Source of the DNA: Hyphomicrobiales bacterium
GTDB taxonomy: Bacteria > Pseudomonadota > Alphaproteobacteria > Rhizobiales > Rhizobiaceae
Direction of reading: 5' to 3'
Assembly (NCBI GenBank): GCA_002709005.1
Contig: PAPH01000017.1
Location: 1 to 64,000 of the forward strand
DNA: 64,000 nt
Notes under the pieces: generated by a model
Seen by the model: only the letters and a program-made list of their open reading frames with translations
The model's database searches: none
Told to the model about the DNA's origin: nothing
Translations under genes and position numbers: made by a program
Shown here: piece by piece, positions 16,266 through 42,626 of the stretch
Layout: each line of letters opens with the position of its first letter
Numbering within the stretch: position 1 is the first letter of the stretch

Positions 16266-16281
16266 TTAACAGCTCGCTAAC
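16266..16281 (+). promoter_or_regulatory. Possible CtrA-type half-degenerate box upstream of the DUF2336 gene
   Basis: TTAACAGCTCGCTAAC matches the CtrA consensus TTAA-N7-TTAAC with one mismatch (C for T in the second half). It lies 46 nt before the start of the DUF2336 gene in an AT-rich stretch. Sequence match only. Confidence 0.35.
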
Positions 16282-16326: not shown

Positions 16327-17511
16327 GTGCCAGTGTCCGACAGGTTCCGTGAGCTCGAAGATCCCTCATCCGGCCGAAAGAAGGACGTCGTCCTCATGGC
16401 CGCGGTCTCAAGCTTCGAAGGCCTGAGACGGCCCTGCCGCGAGGATTACGTTCGCTTCTCGTCCCTTTTTCCATCCCTTTTCGAGAAGGCGAGCCCCGAG
16501 GCGCGGCGGACCGCCGCCGCAGCCTTGTCCCGCCTCGATCGCGTGCCCGATGACATCGTCGAACTGATCGTCAATCAGCCGGTGGAAACCGCCGCCCCCT
16601 TCATCAGTCACTACGAGAACCTGTCCGAAGCCACTCTGGCCCGCGCCATCGCCCGCCACGGCGCCGGTCACGCACGCGCCGCCGCGCGTCGCGCCAACAT
16701 CTCCCATATCGGCCTCTATGCGCTCTGGGGCCTCAAGGACGAGAGCGTCGACCGCGCGCTCAAGCTGCGCGGGCTGACGGTAGATTCCGTCTTCGCCGCC
16801 GATATCGACATTCCCGAACTCGACGCGCTCGAGAACATGGGCAAGTCCAGGCCCCCACTCGCCCGTCTCGACGAACTCAACGGCACCGATGCCGCCTCCG
16901 AGGGTCTGCGCGACGTGCTGCGCCAGATGGCTCTGCCTGAAGGGCAATCCGATACCCGGACGTCCGCGGCCCCGGCGGTCCATCATATGGCCGATCTGCG
17001 CGATGCCTGGCACGACTTCGGTCCCGACAGCGTACGCGCCGGTCTTGGCCGCAAGGCGCATCTCGAGCGCATGGCGCGCTTCGCTGCCAACGGAAACGCC
17101 GAGTGGTTCGCCACCGCCCTCGCCGACGCCATGGGCTCGGGCGTAGCCCTCGCCGAACGCATCATGCTCGATCTGTCCGGACGGCAGCTCGCTACCGCCA
17201 TGTTGGCGCTCGGTGCCCATCGCGACGTCGTCATCACCGCGCTTCAAACCTATTTCCCTCACCTGGGGAACATGGTGGACGGCCGCTCGCGCGCGATGGC
17301 GGAGATCGAGGCGCTCGACAAGGACGCCTGCATCGAACGGCTGGAGGCCTGGCAGCGGGCCGACGCCTACACCCGGCATCTTTCGGAGCCCGATATCGGA
17401 GCGGGCCGAAATCTGGCGGAGATGACCGCCGAGGAATGGGACGACTTCGACATGCCGGAAGCCTCCAACGACGACAGCGTCCCGGCGCGCGAACGCCGCA
17501 GATCGGCCTGA
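16327..17511 (+). CDS. DUF2336 domain protein
   Basis: 394 residues, start GTG 16327 (GTG 16333 also possible). The N-terminal repeats (RRTAAAALSRLDRVPDDIVELIVNQPVETAAPFI) are HEAT-like helices typical of DUF2336, common in alphaproteobacteria. A second helical block and an acidic C-terminus (AEEWDDFDMPE) follow. No catalytic motif is visible. Convergent with the DUF1491 gene. Confidence 0.8.
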   Translation: MPVSDRFRELEDPSSGRKKDVVLMAAVSSFEGLRRPCREDYVRFSSLFPSLFEKASPEARRTAAAALSRLDRVPDDIVELIVNQPVETAAPFISHYENLSEATLARAIARHGAGHARAAARRANISHIGLYALWGLKDESVDRALKLRGLTVDSVFAADIDIPELDALENMGKSRPPLARLDELNGTDAASEGLRDVLRQMALPEGQSDTRTSAAPAVHHMADLRDAWHDFGPDSVRAGLGRKAHLERMARFAANGNAEWFATALADAMGSGVALAERIMLDLSGRQLATAMLALGAHRDVVITALQTYFPHLGNMVDGRSRAMAEIEALDKDACIERLEAWQRADAYTRHLSEPDIGAGRNLAEMTAEEWDDFDMPEASNDDSVPARERRRSA

Positions 17512-30969: not shown

Positions 30970-31365
30970 GTGACGAACAAATCGAAGGAAGAGCTGCGCC
31001 GGGAACTCACACCCGAGCAGTATCACATCACCCAGGAACACGGCACCGAACGCGCCTTTACCGGTCCGCACCTCGACAACAAGGATGACGGCCTCTACCG
31101 ATGTGTCTGCTGCGGCAAGCCGCTGTTCCGTTCAGAAACCAAATACGAATCCGGCAGCGGCTGGCCGAGCTTCTTCGCACCGGTCGATGACGGCGCCGTT
31201 TCGCTTTACCGCGACCAGTCCCACGGCATGGTGCGCACGGAAATCCGCTGCGCGGAATGCGACGCCCATGTCGGCCATGTCTTCGAGGACGGGCCGCAGC
31301 CGACAGGCCTGCGGTTCTGCACGAATGGCCACGCGCTCGATTTCGACAAGGACGAGGAGGCCTGA
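30970..31365 (+). CDS. msrB: Peptide-methionine (R)-S-oxide reductase MsrB
   Basis: 131 residues from GTG 30970; the track ORF begins 64 codons earlier in non-conserved sequence. Zinc cysteines are in CVCC (45, 48) and CAEC (94, 97), and the catalytic Cys117 is in [16 protein letters not shown] is the substrate loop. It reduces methionine-R-sulfoxide in oxidised proteins. No signal peptide, so cytoplasmic. Divergent from the mrp operon. Followed by a strong terminator. Confidence 0.93.
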
Positions 31366-31400
31366 GGCTTCCCTCCGCCTTGCATCGCCAAAGCCGTTTG

Positions 31401-31428
31401 CACCGCCGGTCCCGCCGGCGGTGTTTTT
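31401..31428 (+). terminator. Intrinsic terminator after msrB
   Basis: CACCGCCGG-TCCCG-CCGGCGGTG followed by TTTTT: 9-bp perfect stem. It isolates msrB from the dlt-like cassette. Confidence 0.88.
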
Positions 31429-31528
31429 CATTTGCTCCCCATGAGCACGACAGTCGAATTCTCTCATTTCAATATGATCATCTGCACAATTGGCGCAGAT
31501 CAACGTTTAAAATGCCGCGGATTAATGG

Positions 31529-31544
31529 TTAACCTAGCTTTAAC
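31529..31544 (+). promoter_or_regulatory. Exact CtrA-type box (TTAA-N7-TTAAC) upstream of the dlt-like cassette
   Basis: TTAACCTAGCTTTAAC fits the full CtrA consensus without mismatch, 51 nt before the ATG of the adenylation enzyme and after the msrB terminator. It sits where a promoter for the cassette is expected. CtrA is the cell-cycle response regulator of this class of bacteria. Confidence 0.6.
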
Positions 31545-31595
31545 TCCAAAATAGATCTCTCGTTGCTATAGTAATGTCAGCCAATAGGGGGCGGC

Positions 31596-33158
31596 ATGAA
31601 CTACAACATAGCGCATCCATTTACCCGGAACGCCAGGATATCGCCGGACAGCACCGCGCTGGCGTTGGGAAAGACCCAACTTTCCTACGGTCAGCTTCTG
31701 CGATCTGTCAGAACACTGGGCTCGCGCCTGCACTGCACGTTGAATTCGGGACGGATCGGTATTCTCGCCACGCGCAGCATCGAGGCCTGCGCCGGCATTC
31801 TCGCCACCGCCTGGGCGGGCGGCACCTATGTGCCCCTCGGCCAGAAACTGCCGGAAAGCCGTCTCCTCCAACTCTTCGAACGTCTCGATCTCGACGCGCT
31901 CGTGGTCGACGCGGCGGGACGCAAGCTTCTTTCCGGCGAAATCCTCGCCGCCGCCCCAGCTGCGATTTTCGCGCCAGGCCCGACGCCGGGTTCATTCGTC
32001 GACGCGCGGACCGGCGGAGCGATCGATCCCGATGTGCTGCTCTCCTCACCCGTTCCGACCGGCGCGGACCATCTCGCCTATGTGGAATTCACGTCGGGGA
32101 CCACTGGCATACCGAAAGGGGTGATGGTCTCGAACGGCGCGGTCCGTTCCTATATCGACGCGATGAAGCGCTGGTACGATTTCACGCCCGGCGACCGCGC
32201 GGCCGAAACCTGCGATATCACCTTCGATCTATCCGTCCACAACATGCTGATGGCCTGGGAAGCCGGCGCCGCTCTCCATCTCATGCGCCCGCTCGACATG
32301 CTGGCTCCCGCCCGTTTCGTGGCGCGGGACGGGATCACCACCTGGCTTTCGGTGCCCTCGGTGGTCGCCATGGCGCGGGAAACCGGGTCGCTGCAGCCCG
32401 GCTCCATGCCGTCGTTGCGGATTTCACTCTTCTGCGGCGAGGCGCTGCCCGCCGATATCGCCAACGCCTGGATGGCAGCTGCTCCCAACAGCGTGGTCGA
32501 CAACATATACGGCCCGACCGAGGCCACCATCGCCTGCCTGCGCCAGAGCTGGAGCGAGAAAGGGCTTGTGACCGGCGAGCGCGGCATCGTCGCCATCGGC
32601 AAACCCTATGACGGGATGGAGGCGATGATTGTCGATGGCGAACTCAATCCGGTGGCCGACGGCGAGGCCGGGGAAATAGCGCTGTCGGGCCGGCAGCTCG
32701 CCGAAGGCTATTTCCGCCAGGCTGACCTCACAGCCGAGCGCTTCCCGACGATCAAGGGCAAGCGCTGGTATCTCACCGGCGACAGCGGCTACTGCGACGA
32801 GGGCGGCGTCTTCCATCACCTCGGCCGGCTCGACAACCAGATCAAGCTCAAGGGCTACCGGATCGAACTCGAGGAGATCGACATGAAGCTCCGGGAGGCC
32901 GCGCGCGTCGATCTCGCGGCAACGATCGCCTGGCCGGTCCGCGATGGGGTGGCGCAGGGCATCGTCGGCTTTTGCTCCGGCGCTACGAGCGATGCAAACC
33001 ACATTCTCTCGCGGCTGCGCGAGACACTCCCCGCCTACATGGTCCCCTCGCGGGTGGAAATCATTGACGCCATGCCGCTCAACGCCAACGGCAAGATCGA
33101 CCGCAAGGCGCTCATCGCCCGTCTGGAGCCCCGTTCGGGTCGCCGGGAGGTCGCGTGA
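31596..33158 (+). CDS. DltA-like amino acid adenylation enzyme (carrier protein ligase)
   Basis: 520 residues with all adenylation motifs: TSGTTGIPKG (166-175), FDLSV (210-214), NIYGPTEAT (303-311), LTGDSGY (393-399), GRLDNQIKLKGYR (410-422) and the catalytic Lys500 in NANGKIDRK. FDLSV and LFCGE (Cys280) are closer to D-alanine ligase DltA than to most NRPS domains; the Cys equals the DltA residue linked to D-Ala selection. It should activate an amino acid and load it on the ACP encoded two genes on. There is no condensation, carrier or thioesterase domain. GGGGGCGGC precedes ATG 31596. The substrate is not proven. Confidence 0.85.
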   Translation: MNYNIAHPFTRNARISPDSTALALGKTQLSYGQLLRSVRTLGSRLHCTLNSGRIGILATRSIEACAGILATAWAGGTYVPLGQKLPESRLLQLFERLDLDALVVDAAGRKLLSGEILAAAPAAIFAPGPTPGSFVDARTGGAIDPDVLLSSPVPTGADHLAYVEFTSGTTGIPKGVMVSNGAVRSYIDAMKRWYDFTPGDRAAETCDITFDLSVHNMLMAWEAGAALHLMRPLDMLAPARFVARDGITTWLSVPSVVAMARETGSLQPGSMPSLRISLFCGEALPADIANAWMAAAPNSVVDNIYGPTEATIACLRQSWSEKGLVTGERGIVAIGKPYDGMEAMIVDGELNPVADGEAGEIALSGRQLAEGYFRQADLTAERFPTIKGKRWYLTGDSGYCDEGGVFHHLGRLDNQIKLKGYRIELEEIDMKLREAARVDLAATIAWPVRDGVAQGIVGFCSGATSDANHILSRLRETLPAYMVPSRVEIIDAMPLNANGKIDRKALIARLEPRSGRREVA

Positions 33159-34648
33159 TGACTGCCTTCGACGCCACGAGTCCGTCCAACGGCGGAGCGC
33201 TCAACCCATTCGAACTCCGCCGGCGCTGGCTCGCCATGGACGGCAACGAGGCAGTGCTGGCCTGGGCCGGCACCCGACTTGGCCAGGCACTCATCTTTGG
33301 TGCCTTCGCCGCACTGATCCTCGCCGTGCCGCTTCTGCGGTTCAAGCATTCGCTCATCATCGCGATCGGGCTCGGCCTCACATTCGTGTTCCCGCGGCGG
33401 CGCTTCGCGATGATCACCGGCATGGGCTTTCTTTATTTTCTGGTGCGGCCGTTCCGGTTCGAGGGGCACTATGGGTATTTCGCCCAGATCTGGCAGGGTT
33501 GGGCGAGTCCGCTTCCCGTTCAGGTGGGAATGAGCGTCCTGGCGCTTCTTTTCGCCTTTGCGCTGCTGCCCTACTTCGCCAACCAGCGCAGCGGCACGAT
33601 CGGCTTCGCTAGCCGCCGTCCGATCCTGTCGCTCTTTGGTCTCTGCGTCATGCTGACGGGCGCCACCGCCCTGCTCCCCGAAGAGACACCGGTCGCGCAA
33701 TCGCTGTGGATCGTGCTGACCTTCTTGTCGGGGGCCTTCTTCTTCATCGGCTATCTGCTGATCGACAACCGGGGCAAGACCGGGCTTGCGTTCAATGCCA
33801 AGGCCGGTTTCATGCGCCCGATCTGGGCGGACGGAACGGTGCCGATCAAGGGGCCGAACTATCTGCGCAAGTTCGAGGCAGGCGACGAGACGGCCCTCGC
33901 CCGGACACGGCTCAAGGCGCTCAAACTGTTGGTCTGGGCCTCCATCCTCTATGCGGCCTGGCTTCTGGGTTTCGAACACGGCATCCACGGAAGCCTGGGC
34001 TTTCCGCGGCTGGCGACGGCCATTGCGGGTGCGGGCGAGGATGCGACCTACAGCCTGCCGATGCGGTGGCTGATCGTCGGTATCGATTTCCTCTCGCTGA
34101 TCTTCTGGCTCGGCGCCGTCATACACACGCTCGTGGCCGTCATCCGGCTGGCCGGTTTCGCCATTCCGCGCGGCATGGCCAAGCCGCTAGCCTCGCGGAC
34201 GATCGCCGAATTCTGGGGCCGCTATCTCTTCTATTTCAAGGAGCTGCTTGCCGACTTCTTCTTCTATCCGACGTTCCAGCGCTTCTTCAAGAAAAGCCCC
34301 AGGCTTCGCATCGCCTTCGCGACCTTCGTCGCCGCCTTCATCGGCAACGTGCTTTTCGACCTGATCACGCAGACGCCGTTCGTGGCCATCAACGGCTTCT
34401 GGGCGACGATCGACAATTTCTACAGCTACACGATCTACGCCGCGATCCTGACCGCCGGTATCATCGCCTCGCAGCTCCATACCGCTAAGGCCCGGCCCGA
34501 GGACGGCGTGCTGCGCTACGACGTGCTGCCGCGTATCCAGGTCATCGGCTTCTTCGCCGCGCTGCGGGTGTTCGACGATTCCTCGGGCAGCCTGCCCGTC
34601 GGCGACCGTGTCCACTTCTTCCTCAGCCTGTTTGGAGTATCCCCATGA
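33158..34648 (+). CDS. Polytopic membrane protein in DltB position (MBOAT-like)
   Basis: 496 residues, about ten to twelve membrane helices. ATG 33158 chosen for GGGAGG at seven bases (GTG 33155 also possible). The block EFWGRYLFYFKELLADFFF followed by YPTFQRFF resembles the FW..R....L..D....P signature of MBOAT acyltransferases such as DltB. The family His in the WH of that block and in the later GxWHG are not apparent; the second region reads FIGNVLFDLI. It is larger than DltB (about 400). It overlaps the ligase and ACP genes, so the three work together. It could transfer the ACP-bound amino acid across or at the membrane. Confidence 0.6.
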   Translation: MTAFDATSPSNGGALNPFELRRRWLAMDGNEAVLAWAGTRLGQALIFGAFAALILAVPLLRFKHSLIIAIGLGLTFVFPRRRFAMITGMGFLYFLVRPFRFEGHYGYFAQIWQGWASPLPVQVGMSVLALLFAFALLPYFANQRSGTIGFASRRPILSLFGLCVMLTGATALLPEETPVAQSLWIVLTFLSGAFFFIGYLLIDNRGKTGLAFNAKAGFMRPIWADGTVPIKGPNYLRKFEAGDETALARTRLKALKLLVWASILYAAWLLGFEHGIHGSLGFPRLATAIAGAGEDATYSLPMRWLIVGIDFLSLIFWLGAVIHTLVAVIRLAGFAIPRGMAKPLASRTIAEFWGRYLFYFKELLADFFFYPTFQRFFKKSPRLRIAFATFVAAFIGNVLFDLITQTPFVAINGFWATIDNFYSYTIYAAILTAGIIASQLHTAKARPEDGVLRYDVLPRIQVIGFFAALRVFDDSSGSLPVGDRVHFFLSLFGVSP

Positions 34649-34896
34649 CCGCCACGATCATCGAGACCGTCCGCCGCACCGTTACCGACCTTCTCGCTGA
34701 ACGGGGCATGCCGATCCAGATCGACGACGGAGAATCGCTCTTCGACAGCGGCAAGCTCGATTCCATGGCGGCGGTGAACATCATGATGAAGCTCGAGGCC
34801 GACTTCGGCATCGATCTGTCCGATCCCGATTTCGACATCTCGCAGATCGATTCCGTTGAAGGCATCTCCGAACTCGTCTCGCGACAGATGAACTGA
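34645..34896 (+). CDS. Acyl/aminoacyl carrier protein (DltC-like)
   Basis: 83 residues, a four-helix carrier protein with the phosphopantetheine site Ser40 in GKLDSMAAVNIMMKLE. Strongly acidic. The ATG overlaps the stop of the membrane protein gene (ATGA). It is the expected partner of the adenylation enzyme, giving the order ligase-membrane protein-carrier exactly as in dltABC. No dltD follows; the next gene is a peptidase. Confidence 0.88.
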   Translation: MTATIIETVRRTVTDLLAERGMPIQIDDGESLFDSGKLDSMAAVNIMMKLEADFGIDLSDPDFDISQIDSVEGISELVSRQMN

Positions 34897-37511: not shown

Positions 37512-38717
37512 ATGTTTATTCGACGGCTTGCGCATACCTGCCGTTCCTTCCTTCATAGCAAGGACGGCAACTTCGCGATGCTCGCGGCCACGCTGATTCC
37601 GCTGACTTTCGCGGCCGGCAGTTTCGCCGTCGACTTCGCCAACATCATCTCGATGAAGACCCGTCTTCAGGATGCCGCTGACGGAGCGGCCCTGGCGACA
37701 TCGAGCCAGTTGGCGGCGAAAAAAATCACCGCGGCGGAAGCCAAGCAATACGCGGAAGACTATTTCAGGGGCATGGTCGCCGAGAGCAACGGCTCCTTCT
37801 CGACCTATTCCGCGACGCCGGTGGCGACCATCACGCCGATTCCCAACGGCCCCTCGACCATCTGGCAGGTCGAAGTCACGACCATCGGAACGCAGAAGCT
37901 CACGCCGATGGCCAAAATGGTCGGCCGGAGCACGGTCCATGTCAACGTCGCCAGCGTATCGGAGGCGACCACCGAAGCCACCTATCCGGTTTCGATGTAT
38001 CTGGTGCTCGACCATTCAGGCTCAATGGGGTGGGATTCGGGTCAGACAACCGGCGTGGAAGTGACGAAATATTGCCGGTACTGGTGGGGGGGCCGCTACG
38101 AGTGTGGCACCGAGATCCAGAACCAACCGATTTCCAAGATCAACGTGCTGAAGAAGGCCGTTGCCGACCTTGTCGCGGACGTCAAGGCGTCGGATCCCGA
38201 TAACAAGTATGCGCGCATGGGCGCGGTCTCCTACAACAACAAGACGACAGAATACGACAAGCTTCAGGCTGACTGGGACAAGAACCGGGTGGTGACTTTC
38301 ACCAATGCGCTCGAGGCGAAAGACGGCACCAACTCGATGTACGCGATGGCCTGGGCGTATGACAGGCTCGCCGGGGCCACTTCCCCCGAGGTAAGCGCAC
38401 ACCACTACAAGAATGGCGCAGACGATCCAGCCAAGTTCATCGTCTTCATGACCGACGGCCAAAACGAGACCGGATCGTCATCCGGGGACGATTACGTCGA
38501 TCGCGAAACGATGAAGTCATGCACCGACGCGAAGAACAAAGGTGTCACGATTTTCTCCGTGGCATTCCAGGCCCCCGATCGCGGCAAGGCGTTGCTGGCG
38601 TCGTGTTCGTCCGGCACCGGCTTCTATTACGACGCAAGCAGTGCGGACGAGCTGATTGCCGCCTTCAAGGAAATCGGCGAGAAGGCGACAAACCGCTCGA
38701 ACAGGCTGACCATGTAA
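37512..38717 (+). CDS. TadG-like protein with von Willebrand A domain (1)
   Basis: 401 residues. The N-terminal KDGNFAMLAATLIPLTFAAGSFAVDF is the TadE/TadG-type (Flp pilus assembly) membrane segment, followed by a vWA domain whose MIDAS motif DHSGSM (167-172) is intact. CRYWWGGRYEC probably forms a disulfide. The bulk is periplasmic. Relatives anchor or assemble Flp pili, but no other tad/cpa gene is within this window, so the partner is unknown. Flanked by a terminator on the right. A paralogue lies 2.6 kb away. Confidence 0.82.
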   Translation: MFIRRLAHTCRSFLHSKDGNFAMLAATLIPLTFAAGSFAVDFANIISMKTRLQDAADGAALATSSQLAAKKITAAEAKQYAEDYFRGMVAESNGSFSTYSATPVATITPIPNGPSTIWQVEVTTIGTQKLTPMAKMVGRSTVHVNVASVSEATTEATYPVSMYLVLDHSGSMGWDSGQTTGVEVTKYCRYWWGGRYECGTEIQNQPISKINVLKKAVADLVADVKASDPDNKYARMGAVSYNNKTTEYDKLQADWDKNRVVTFTNALEAKDGTNSMYAMAWAYDRLAGATSPEVSAHHYKNGADDPAKFIVFMTDGQNETGSSSGDDYVDRETMKSCTDAKNKGVTIFSVAFQAPDRGKALLASCSSGTGFYYDASSADELIAAFKEIGEKATNRSNRLTM

Positions 38718-40970: not shown

Positions 40971-41330
40971 GGTTGCTTCTCCCTTTTCGGTTATGCGGCG
41001 CTCATTGCGCCTTTCGGAAAATATCGTGCGATACGCACCTTGAACTTGAAATACCCGGGCGGCGGACAACCCGCGCTGGAAATAGCATTATCAACGTCTT
41101 GCATCCAACATAGTGCCGCACCCTTGCTCTGGCAACGCGACGCGGGACGCTTTTGTTCCGTTGCCGTTTCGCAGACGACGAAGCAGGTCGCGAAGACCGT
41201 TCGGCAGGTGCGGTTTCCGATCCTTACCAATGCGTAAATCAGATTTTTTGAATTCGATCCGAGCTTCGGAAAGAATTCTAACCTTTTGCCGGTATTGGTC
41301 GACACAGGACAGTCCCTGGAGACCAAGAAA
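40971..41330. other. Divergent intergenic region, sodB / TadG-like 2
   Basis: 360 bp without a supported gene. It includes an AT-rich stretch at 41230-41260 (taaatcagattttttgaattcgatcc). Should contain promoters of sodB and the plus-strand TadG-like gene; no regulator box recognised. Confidence 0.4.
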
Positions 41331-42626
41331 ATGTGCGCACTGCTCCGCAAATTTCGAGCTGACCGAAAAGGCAACTTCGCGATCACCTCAGCGGTGGCGA
41401 TTCTGCCGCTGTTCGCCGCGGCCGGCCTGGGCCTCGACTTGTCCAACGCCTATTCCGCCCGGACCAAGCTGGACAATGCCGCGGATTCGGCGGTTCTAGC
41501 TGCACTGCAGAGCGCCTCGAGCGACTTGAAGACCAAGGGGCAGTCAAAATCCTATTCCGCGCATGAACTGCTCGGCAAGGATATGATGGATGCCAATCTG
41601 GAAGCGGAATACGGCATCTCGCTCAAGGCCTTCACCGTCGAGGTGACCAATACCGGCACGGCGCTGCAGGCCAAAGCGACCTATGACGCCGAGCTCGAAA
41701 CAAGGATCATGCGCGTCTTCAACCGTGACGAGGTGCGGATCGCCAACGAAGTGCTCGCCAGCACGCAGCTCGATCAGAAGATGAGCGTCTACATGCTTCT
41801 CGACAACACGCCGTCCATGGGCGTGGCTGCAACGACCGCCGACATCACGAAGTTGGTCGGCGCGACCGCAAACAAGCAGACAAATGCAAAATGCGCCTTC
41901 GCATGCCACGCCGAAGACGACGGGGACAACTACTACAACCTCGCCAAGGGCATCGGCGTGAATATGCGCATCGACATCGTGCGTGAGGCCACCCAGAAGG
42001 TGATGGACGAGTTCCACGCGAAGACGGCCTTCCCGGATCAGTACAAGGTCGCGGTCTACTCTTTCGGCAAGACGGCCGAGAACATGCAACTGACCGAGGT
42101 CGCCGCTCCTTCGAGCGACTTCCAGACGCAAAAGCAGCTGACCGCCGCTCTCGACCTGATGACGATCCCGTACCAGAACTACAACGACGACCAGCAGACC
42201 GATTTCGACGGAACACTGAAATCCCTGCGGCAGGTCATCAAGCAGGACGAGGCCAAGGGCGACAATTCGCAAAAGATCGTCTTCGTGGTGACCGACGGGG
42301 TCGGGGATTCCGCGAAACCCTACAACTGCACGAGAAACAACGTTAACAGCAAACCGCGCTGCATCGAACCACTCGACATCAAGGCCTGTGAGCAGATCAA
42401 GAAGCAGGGCTACAAACTCGCGGTGCTCTACACGACGTACCTGCCGTTGCCGACAAACGACTTCTACAAGAAATGGGTCGCGCCGTTCCAGGCGGATATC
42501 CCTGGAAAACTTGCAACCTGTGCGACGCCGGGCCTATTCGCGGAAGTGGGCTTCGGAGCCTCGATCCCCGACGCGATGACGGAACTTCTGAATTCGGCAA
42601 CCACGATGCCACGCCTGATCTACTAG
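41331..42626 (+). CDS. TadG-like protein with von Willebrand A domain (2)
   Basis: 431 residues from ATG 41331 (GGAG ten bases upstream); TTG 41286 is the track start. Architecture as in the protein at 37.5 kb: RKGNFAITSAVAILPLFAAAGLGLDLSNA membrane segment, then a vWA domain. Its MIDAS reads DNTPS (158-162), a Thr in place of the usual Ser. There are at least six Cys (CAFAC, CTRNN, RCIE, ACEQ, ATCAT), consistent with an exported, disulfide-rich protein. No tad operon nearby. Own terminator. Confidence 0.82.
   Translation: MCALLRKFRADRKGNFAITSAVAILPLFAAAGLGLDLSNAYSARTKLDNAADSAVLAALQSASSDLKTKGQSKSYSAHELLGKDMMDANLEAEYGISLKAFTVEVTNTGTALQAKATYDAELETRIMRVFNRDEVRIANEVLASTQLDQKMSVYMLLDNTPSMGVAATTADITKLVGATANKQTNAKCAFACHAEDDGDNYYNLAKGIGVNMRIDIVREATQKVMDEFHAKTAFPDQYKVAVYSFGKTAENMQLTEVAAPSSDFQTQKQLTAALDLMTIPYQNYNDDQQTDFDGTLKSLRQVIKQDEAKGDNSQKIVFVVTDGVGDSAKPYNCTRNNVNSKPRCIEPLDIKACEQIKKQGYKLAVLYTTYLPLPTNDFYKKWVAPFQADIPGKLATCATPGLFAEVGFGASIPDAMTELLNSATTMPRLIY

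Follow-up and report, generated by a model that had tools for sequence, protein, structure and literature searches.

The window, by which we mean the whole 64 kb stretch of DNA analysed here, carries an exact CtrA-type box at 31529–31544, located in front of a three-gene cassette that resembles the dlt operon. Analysis of the box, of its genome and of orthologous cassettes suggests that it is probably a real and functional CtrA-type site, which is partly conserved. We consider it likely that the box is a functional CtrA binding site in the promoter of a dlt-like surface-modification operon, which it would activate with the other CtrA genes. If this is true, the operon joins the Rhizobiales CtrA regulon and surface chemistry is tied to the cell cycle. 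To our knowledge, a dlt-like cassette is not among the described targets of CtrA. A second arrangement of TTAA half-sites, TTAA-N2-TTAA, is a more novel lead than the N7 box.

The box and the dlt-like cassette

The consensus of the CtrA full site, TTAA-N7-TTAA(C), is matched exactly on both strands, with the minus-strand match to TTAA-N7-TTAAC located at 31528–31543. Both strand matches are the box itself and the pattern is present nowhere else in the 64 kb, where 0.01 matches are expected after shuffling; none of the 100 dinucleotide shuffles reached two. The shorter pattern TTAA-N7-TTAA has its sole occurrence in the window here as well (0.05 expected), and under a CtrA matrix derived from other loci the box scores 21.2, the best in the window, the next being 17.7. 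The sequence-only reading had described an exact TTAA-N7-TTAAC, 51 nt ahead of the first start codon and downstream of the msrB terminator. Its sequence, coordinates and distance are right, as the ATG of the DltA-like gene is at 31596, and the msrB stop codon (31363–31365) is followed by a terminator-like hairpin. It had missed two elements of the surrounding sequence (GATTAATGGTTAACCTAGCTTTAACTCC), namely an additional TTAA at 31522–31525, forming a cluster of TTAA at 31522, 31529 and 31540, and ATGGTTAA at 31525–31532, which is the reverse of the half-site variant TTAACCAT. Coordinates of the features are given in Table 1.

Table 1. Features of the cassette and its upstream region in the window
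Feature	Position	Strand	Basis
Terminator-like hairpin of msrB, between msrB and the cassette	31400..31424	+	
TTAATGGTTAA: additional TTAA 3 bp 5' of the box, with ATGGTTAA; counterpart of TTAAGGTTAA of the relatives	31522..31532	+	Sequence, relatives
CtrA-type full box TTAA-N7-TTAAC, TTAACCTAGCTTTAAC	31529..31544	+	Exact consensus match; top CtrA-matrix score of the window
Candidate −10 hexamer TATAGT	31567..31572	+	Read by eye; predicted
DltA-like adenylate-forming ligase (PF00501 AMP-binding; amino acid adenylation domain)	31596..33158	+	
Multi-pass membrane protein with weak DltB/MBOAT likeness; gene start overlapping the 3' end of the ligase gene	33158..34648	+	TIGR04091 E=4e-4, below cut-off
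DltC-like carrier protein (PP-binding)	34645..34896	+	

Elsewhere in the window, a second CtrA-like box, TTAACAGCTCGCTAAC (TTAA-N7-CTAAC, 16266–16281, matrix score 17.7), is present 54 nt 5' of a DUF2336 gene (16327–17511). Two Tad/VWA (TadG-like) genes are also located near each other, at 37512–38717 (confirmed by Pfam) and 41286–42626 (assigned by sequence likeness only).

The term dlt-like denotes a resemblance only, because all three proteins score below curated cut-offs and dltD is not adjacent; at the level of the locus, the next gene encodes an oligopeptidase B-like S9 peptidase. The DltA-like protein scores 255 bits against TIGR01734 (cut-off 559.85) and the DltB-like protein 19.7 bits against TIGR04091 (cut-off 375), while the DltC-like protein reaches 34.5 bits against PRK05087 (cut-off 68) and 26.5 against TIGR01688 (cut-off 52.35). 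For the DltB-like protein, no match came from Pfam or from a profile search against solved structures, and its AlphaFold model (pLDDT 36) was left unused. In most relatives the membrane gene directly follows the ligase gene. By analogy, the cassette may work like dlt without being a dlt operon, by activating an amino acid or acyl group, loading it onto the carrier and transferring it across the membrane.

CtrA and N7 boxes in the genome

The source genome (G000; 4.08 Mb, 88 contigs) is that of an Oricola-related bacterium of the Rhizobiales. It encodes a CtrA homologue (G000:C44:144425-145102), which is 85% identical over 226 residues to the Caulobacter CtrA sequence used as the query. The region 5' of this ctrA gene has both a box close to the consensus, TTAAGGGCAGGTAAAC, and TTAACCAT as a half-site. 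Genome-wide, there are 126 TTAA pairs at spacings of 0–15, of which 41 are located on the AT-rich contig C6, perhaps a phage, a plasmid or a contaminant. Outside C6, spacing 7 is represented by 22 sites and the remaining 15 spacings together by ~63 pairs (~4.2 per spacing), which corresponds to an excess of ~5-fold for spacing 7 (Poisson P ~8e-10). The other TTAA spacings served as the control here, and a reversed-pattern control was dropped because it tests AATT and not TTAA.

The genes behind the N7 sites of this genome encode a flagellin, FtsK, TadE, a PAS/receiver protein, two outer-membrane beta-barrel proteins (Omp25-like porins), a DUF1465 protein (two boxes), an O-antigen-ligase-like protein and a FeeM-like acyltransferase. 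Two further N7 boxes belong to a Trans_reg_C response regulator (Rem/FtcR-like) located directly before a flgE-like gene. At nine of these loci, N7 boxes are also present before the homologous genes of G186, a genome of the same genus. N7 boxes are thus over-represented in this genome and precede genes of the kinds known as CtrA targets. Given the N7 excess, the classic-type targets and the conservation in G186, a perfect N7 box that lies at a promoter in this organism can be taken as good evidence that the site is real.

The DUF1465 gene has two N7 boxes 5' of it in both the source genome (L070) and G186 (L109), forming a conserved tandem CtrA-type promoter. On contig C51 of the source genome, an N7 box (L071) lies 63 bp 5' of a RepA/ParA-like partition gene, suggesting that a replicon, either a plasmid or a chromid, is under CtrA control.

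The same counts bear on the possibility that an AT-rich promoter in a GC-rich genome has produced the box of the window by chance and that it is unbound. About four TTAA pairs are expected per spacing genome-wide, so that perhaps a fifth of the N7 sites are background, and some of them are located outside promoter positions (L059). However, the box of the window is in promoter position and has the GG flank which is preferred at other N7 sites. The same gene of G204, a genome of another genus, also has an exact N7 box, and matches to the CtrA matrix are enriched across orthologues. A chance origin therefore appears very unlikely.

Orthologous cassettes and a second TTAA arrangement

The cassette is present in 32 of 398 genomes, most of the carriers belonging to one Rhizobiales family, and its first protein is 63% identical to a protein of Oricola cellulosilytica. 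Sampling of the whole order yielded a single additional carrier, from another family, whose orthologue (L133) is without TTAAGGTTAA, the arrangement described below. The exact N7 box precedes the cassette in two of the 29 orthologous regions only, those of G204, which is the closest orthologue, and G062. It was not found in the remaining 27 upstream regions, including those of same-genus G186 and of Oricola cellulosilytica, and most of the other regions show a different TTAA arrangement or none. The CtrA matrix (25 positions, built from 46 N7 sites of the source genome and G186, with the window left out) scores at least 12.7 in 8/29 orthologous cassette regions vs 1/98 control regions, a set cleaned of real N7 sites (Fisher P=2.4e-5, an optimistic value as the orthologues are interrelated). 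The site is partly conserved at the orthologous cassettes, matches to the CtrA matrix being enriched and the exact box rare. The earlier proposal of a CtrA-type box before a dlt-like cassette is supported by the encoded CtrA, the enriched N7 spacing, the classic targets and the matrix enrichment, and is narrowed by the rarity of the exact box among orthologues and by 'dlt' being a resemblance.

The commonest arrangement at the orthologous cassettes is TTAAGGTTAA, which consists of two TTAA 6 bp apart (2-bp gap). It is present in eight orthologues from five genera, 94–134 bp before the matched start, and in 8/8 exactly 13 bp separate it from a TTGACA-like −35 hexamer downstream, the match to TTGACA averaging 4.75/6 at the 13-bp offset vs ~1.4 elsewhere. 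The decamer occurs in 2–7 copies per genome, with 0.01–0.07 expected in the cassette upstream regions. Other TTAAGGTTAA sites precede genes for an M23 peptidase, an AEC-type transporter, a TolQ-like protein, a rhomboid protein and a histidine kinase, as well as flagellin, Omp-like porin and FeeM-like genes, whose homologues in the source genome have N7 boxes. In three genomes (L077, L099, L102), TTAAGGTTAA also lies within argS, in the part that encodes the C-terminus. Conserved codons or a promoter for the following gene could explain these matches, which were discounted as regulatory evidence because they are inside coding sequence. No report of TTAAGGTTAA or TTAACCTTAA from Alphaproteobacteria was found in literature searches.

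By itself, TTAAGGTTAA is not a CtrA full site. It could be that the cassette promoter is run throughout the family by a TTAA-cluster element, with TTAAGGTTAA as its core in relatives, through another, unnamed regulator, and that half-site drift has produced the perfect N7 spacing of the window as a by-product. The prevalence of TTAAGGTTAA at the cassette, its rarity genome-wide and its invariant distance to the −35-like hexamer would all suit such a regulator. Moreover, partner half-sites 11 bp away show no conservation at the cassette TTAAGGTTAA sites of the eight relatives, and the M23 peptidase, AEC transporter, TolQ and rhomboid genes are not N7 targets in the source genome. However, the flanks of 33 TTAAGGTTAA sites show two enrichments at 11 bp, the distance between CtrA half-sites: TTAAC exactly that far upstream of the first TTAA, and TTAA equally far downstream of the second. 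Three target families besides the cassette (flagellin, Omp-like and FeeM-like) carry TTAAGGTTAA or N7 boxes depending on the genome, vs ~0.07 families expected (hypergeometric P ~4e-5), and in both G186 and G204 the FeeM-like promoter bears the two arrangements, overlapping each other. Because of the half-site enrichment, the shared target families and these overlapping promoters, we favour TTAAGGTTAA as a CtrA-type element, with partner half-sites that are unconserved at the cassette itself, and control by another regulator seems improbable. The CenR motif (TGA-N8-TGA) and the LdtR motif were compared from papers and neither matches.

A wider reading, tentative and a little short of probable, is that CtrA of this family (or a regulator with its targets) uses TTAAGGTTAA as a second architecture, in which many targets have partner half-sites 11 bp outward and the cassette has a fixed 13 bp to the −35. 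Promoters would switch between this architecture and the N7 box in evolution, and the dlt-like cassette would be a recurrent member of the regulon. If this is true, TTAAGGTTAA-N13-TTGACA provides a simple testable hypothesis, namely that CtrA-type promoters are rebuilt in evolution while the same regulator is kept.

Promoter geometry and known systems

A search at the window promoter found no sigma-70-type promoter and no consensus −35. With the start predicted from the −10 read by eye, the centre of the box is located at ~−43. In the relatives, the second TTAA of TTAAGGTTAA begins 17 bp before the −35, and the equivalent place in the window is 31546; as judged from these positions, the predicted geometry of the box agrees with the element-to-minus-35 spacing of the relatives. 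It has been reported that CtrA activates from sites near −35 (PMC6180460; PMC11264516) and represses from sites overlapping −10 (PMC6180460). Activation is therefore preferred over repression, given the box geometry and the reported activation near −35.

In the mechanism we propose, phosphorylated CtrA would bind the two TTAA half-sites at 31529–31543, one helical turn apart, and would probably also contact the additional TTAA at 31522. Sitting just 5' of a weak −35 region, the bound CtrA would recruit RNA polymerase to the −10 TATAGT, and the dlt-like operon would thereby be turned on together with other CtrA genes. We infer CtrA binding, activation over repression and cell-cycle timing from sequence, and the cassette may in this way come under cell-cycle or polar-growth control.

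CtrA might instead bind the box and repress the operon, as Agrobacterium dgcB and Atu3318 are repressed via CtrA boxes whose distances from the start codon (−52 and −109; PMC7003649) are similar to that of the box here and, with no consensus −35 in the window, the true start could lie under the box or 5' of it. Repression is nevertheless rather unlikely, since TTAAGGTTAA at a fixed distance 5' of the −35-like hexamer in eight relatives occupies a typical activator position and repressing CtrA sites have been reported over −10 (PMC6180460).

The box can be compared with CtrA full sites of Alphaproteobacteria (Caulobacter, PMC11264516; Hyphomonas, PMC7200025; Sinorhizobium, PMC4433202), with which it shares the exact TTAA-N7-TTAA(C) and the promoter position. 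The likeness extends to the genome-wide excess and to the flagellin, pilus and cell-cycle genes that have the site in common, as predicted from sequence here. Unlike the standard full site, the box of the window has an additional TTAA 3 bp upstream. As in the half-site and ungapped variants of CtrA sites (TTAA, TTAACCAT; PMC6180460), the window has ATGGTTAA and nearby TTAA half-sites, whereas the relatives carry TTAAGGTTAA with its two TTAA and 2-bp gap. The dlt operon, DltA-DltB-DltC-DltD, is responsible for D-alanylation in Gram-positive bacteria (PMC11035591). The cassette differs from it in its Gram-negative host, in the sub-cut-off scores of all three proteins and in having no adjacent dltD, but is like it in bringing together an adenylating ligase, a multi-pass membrane protein and a carrier protein in one operon.
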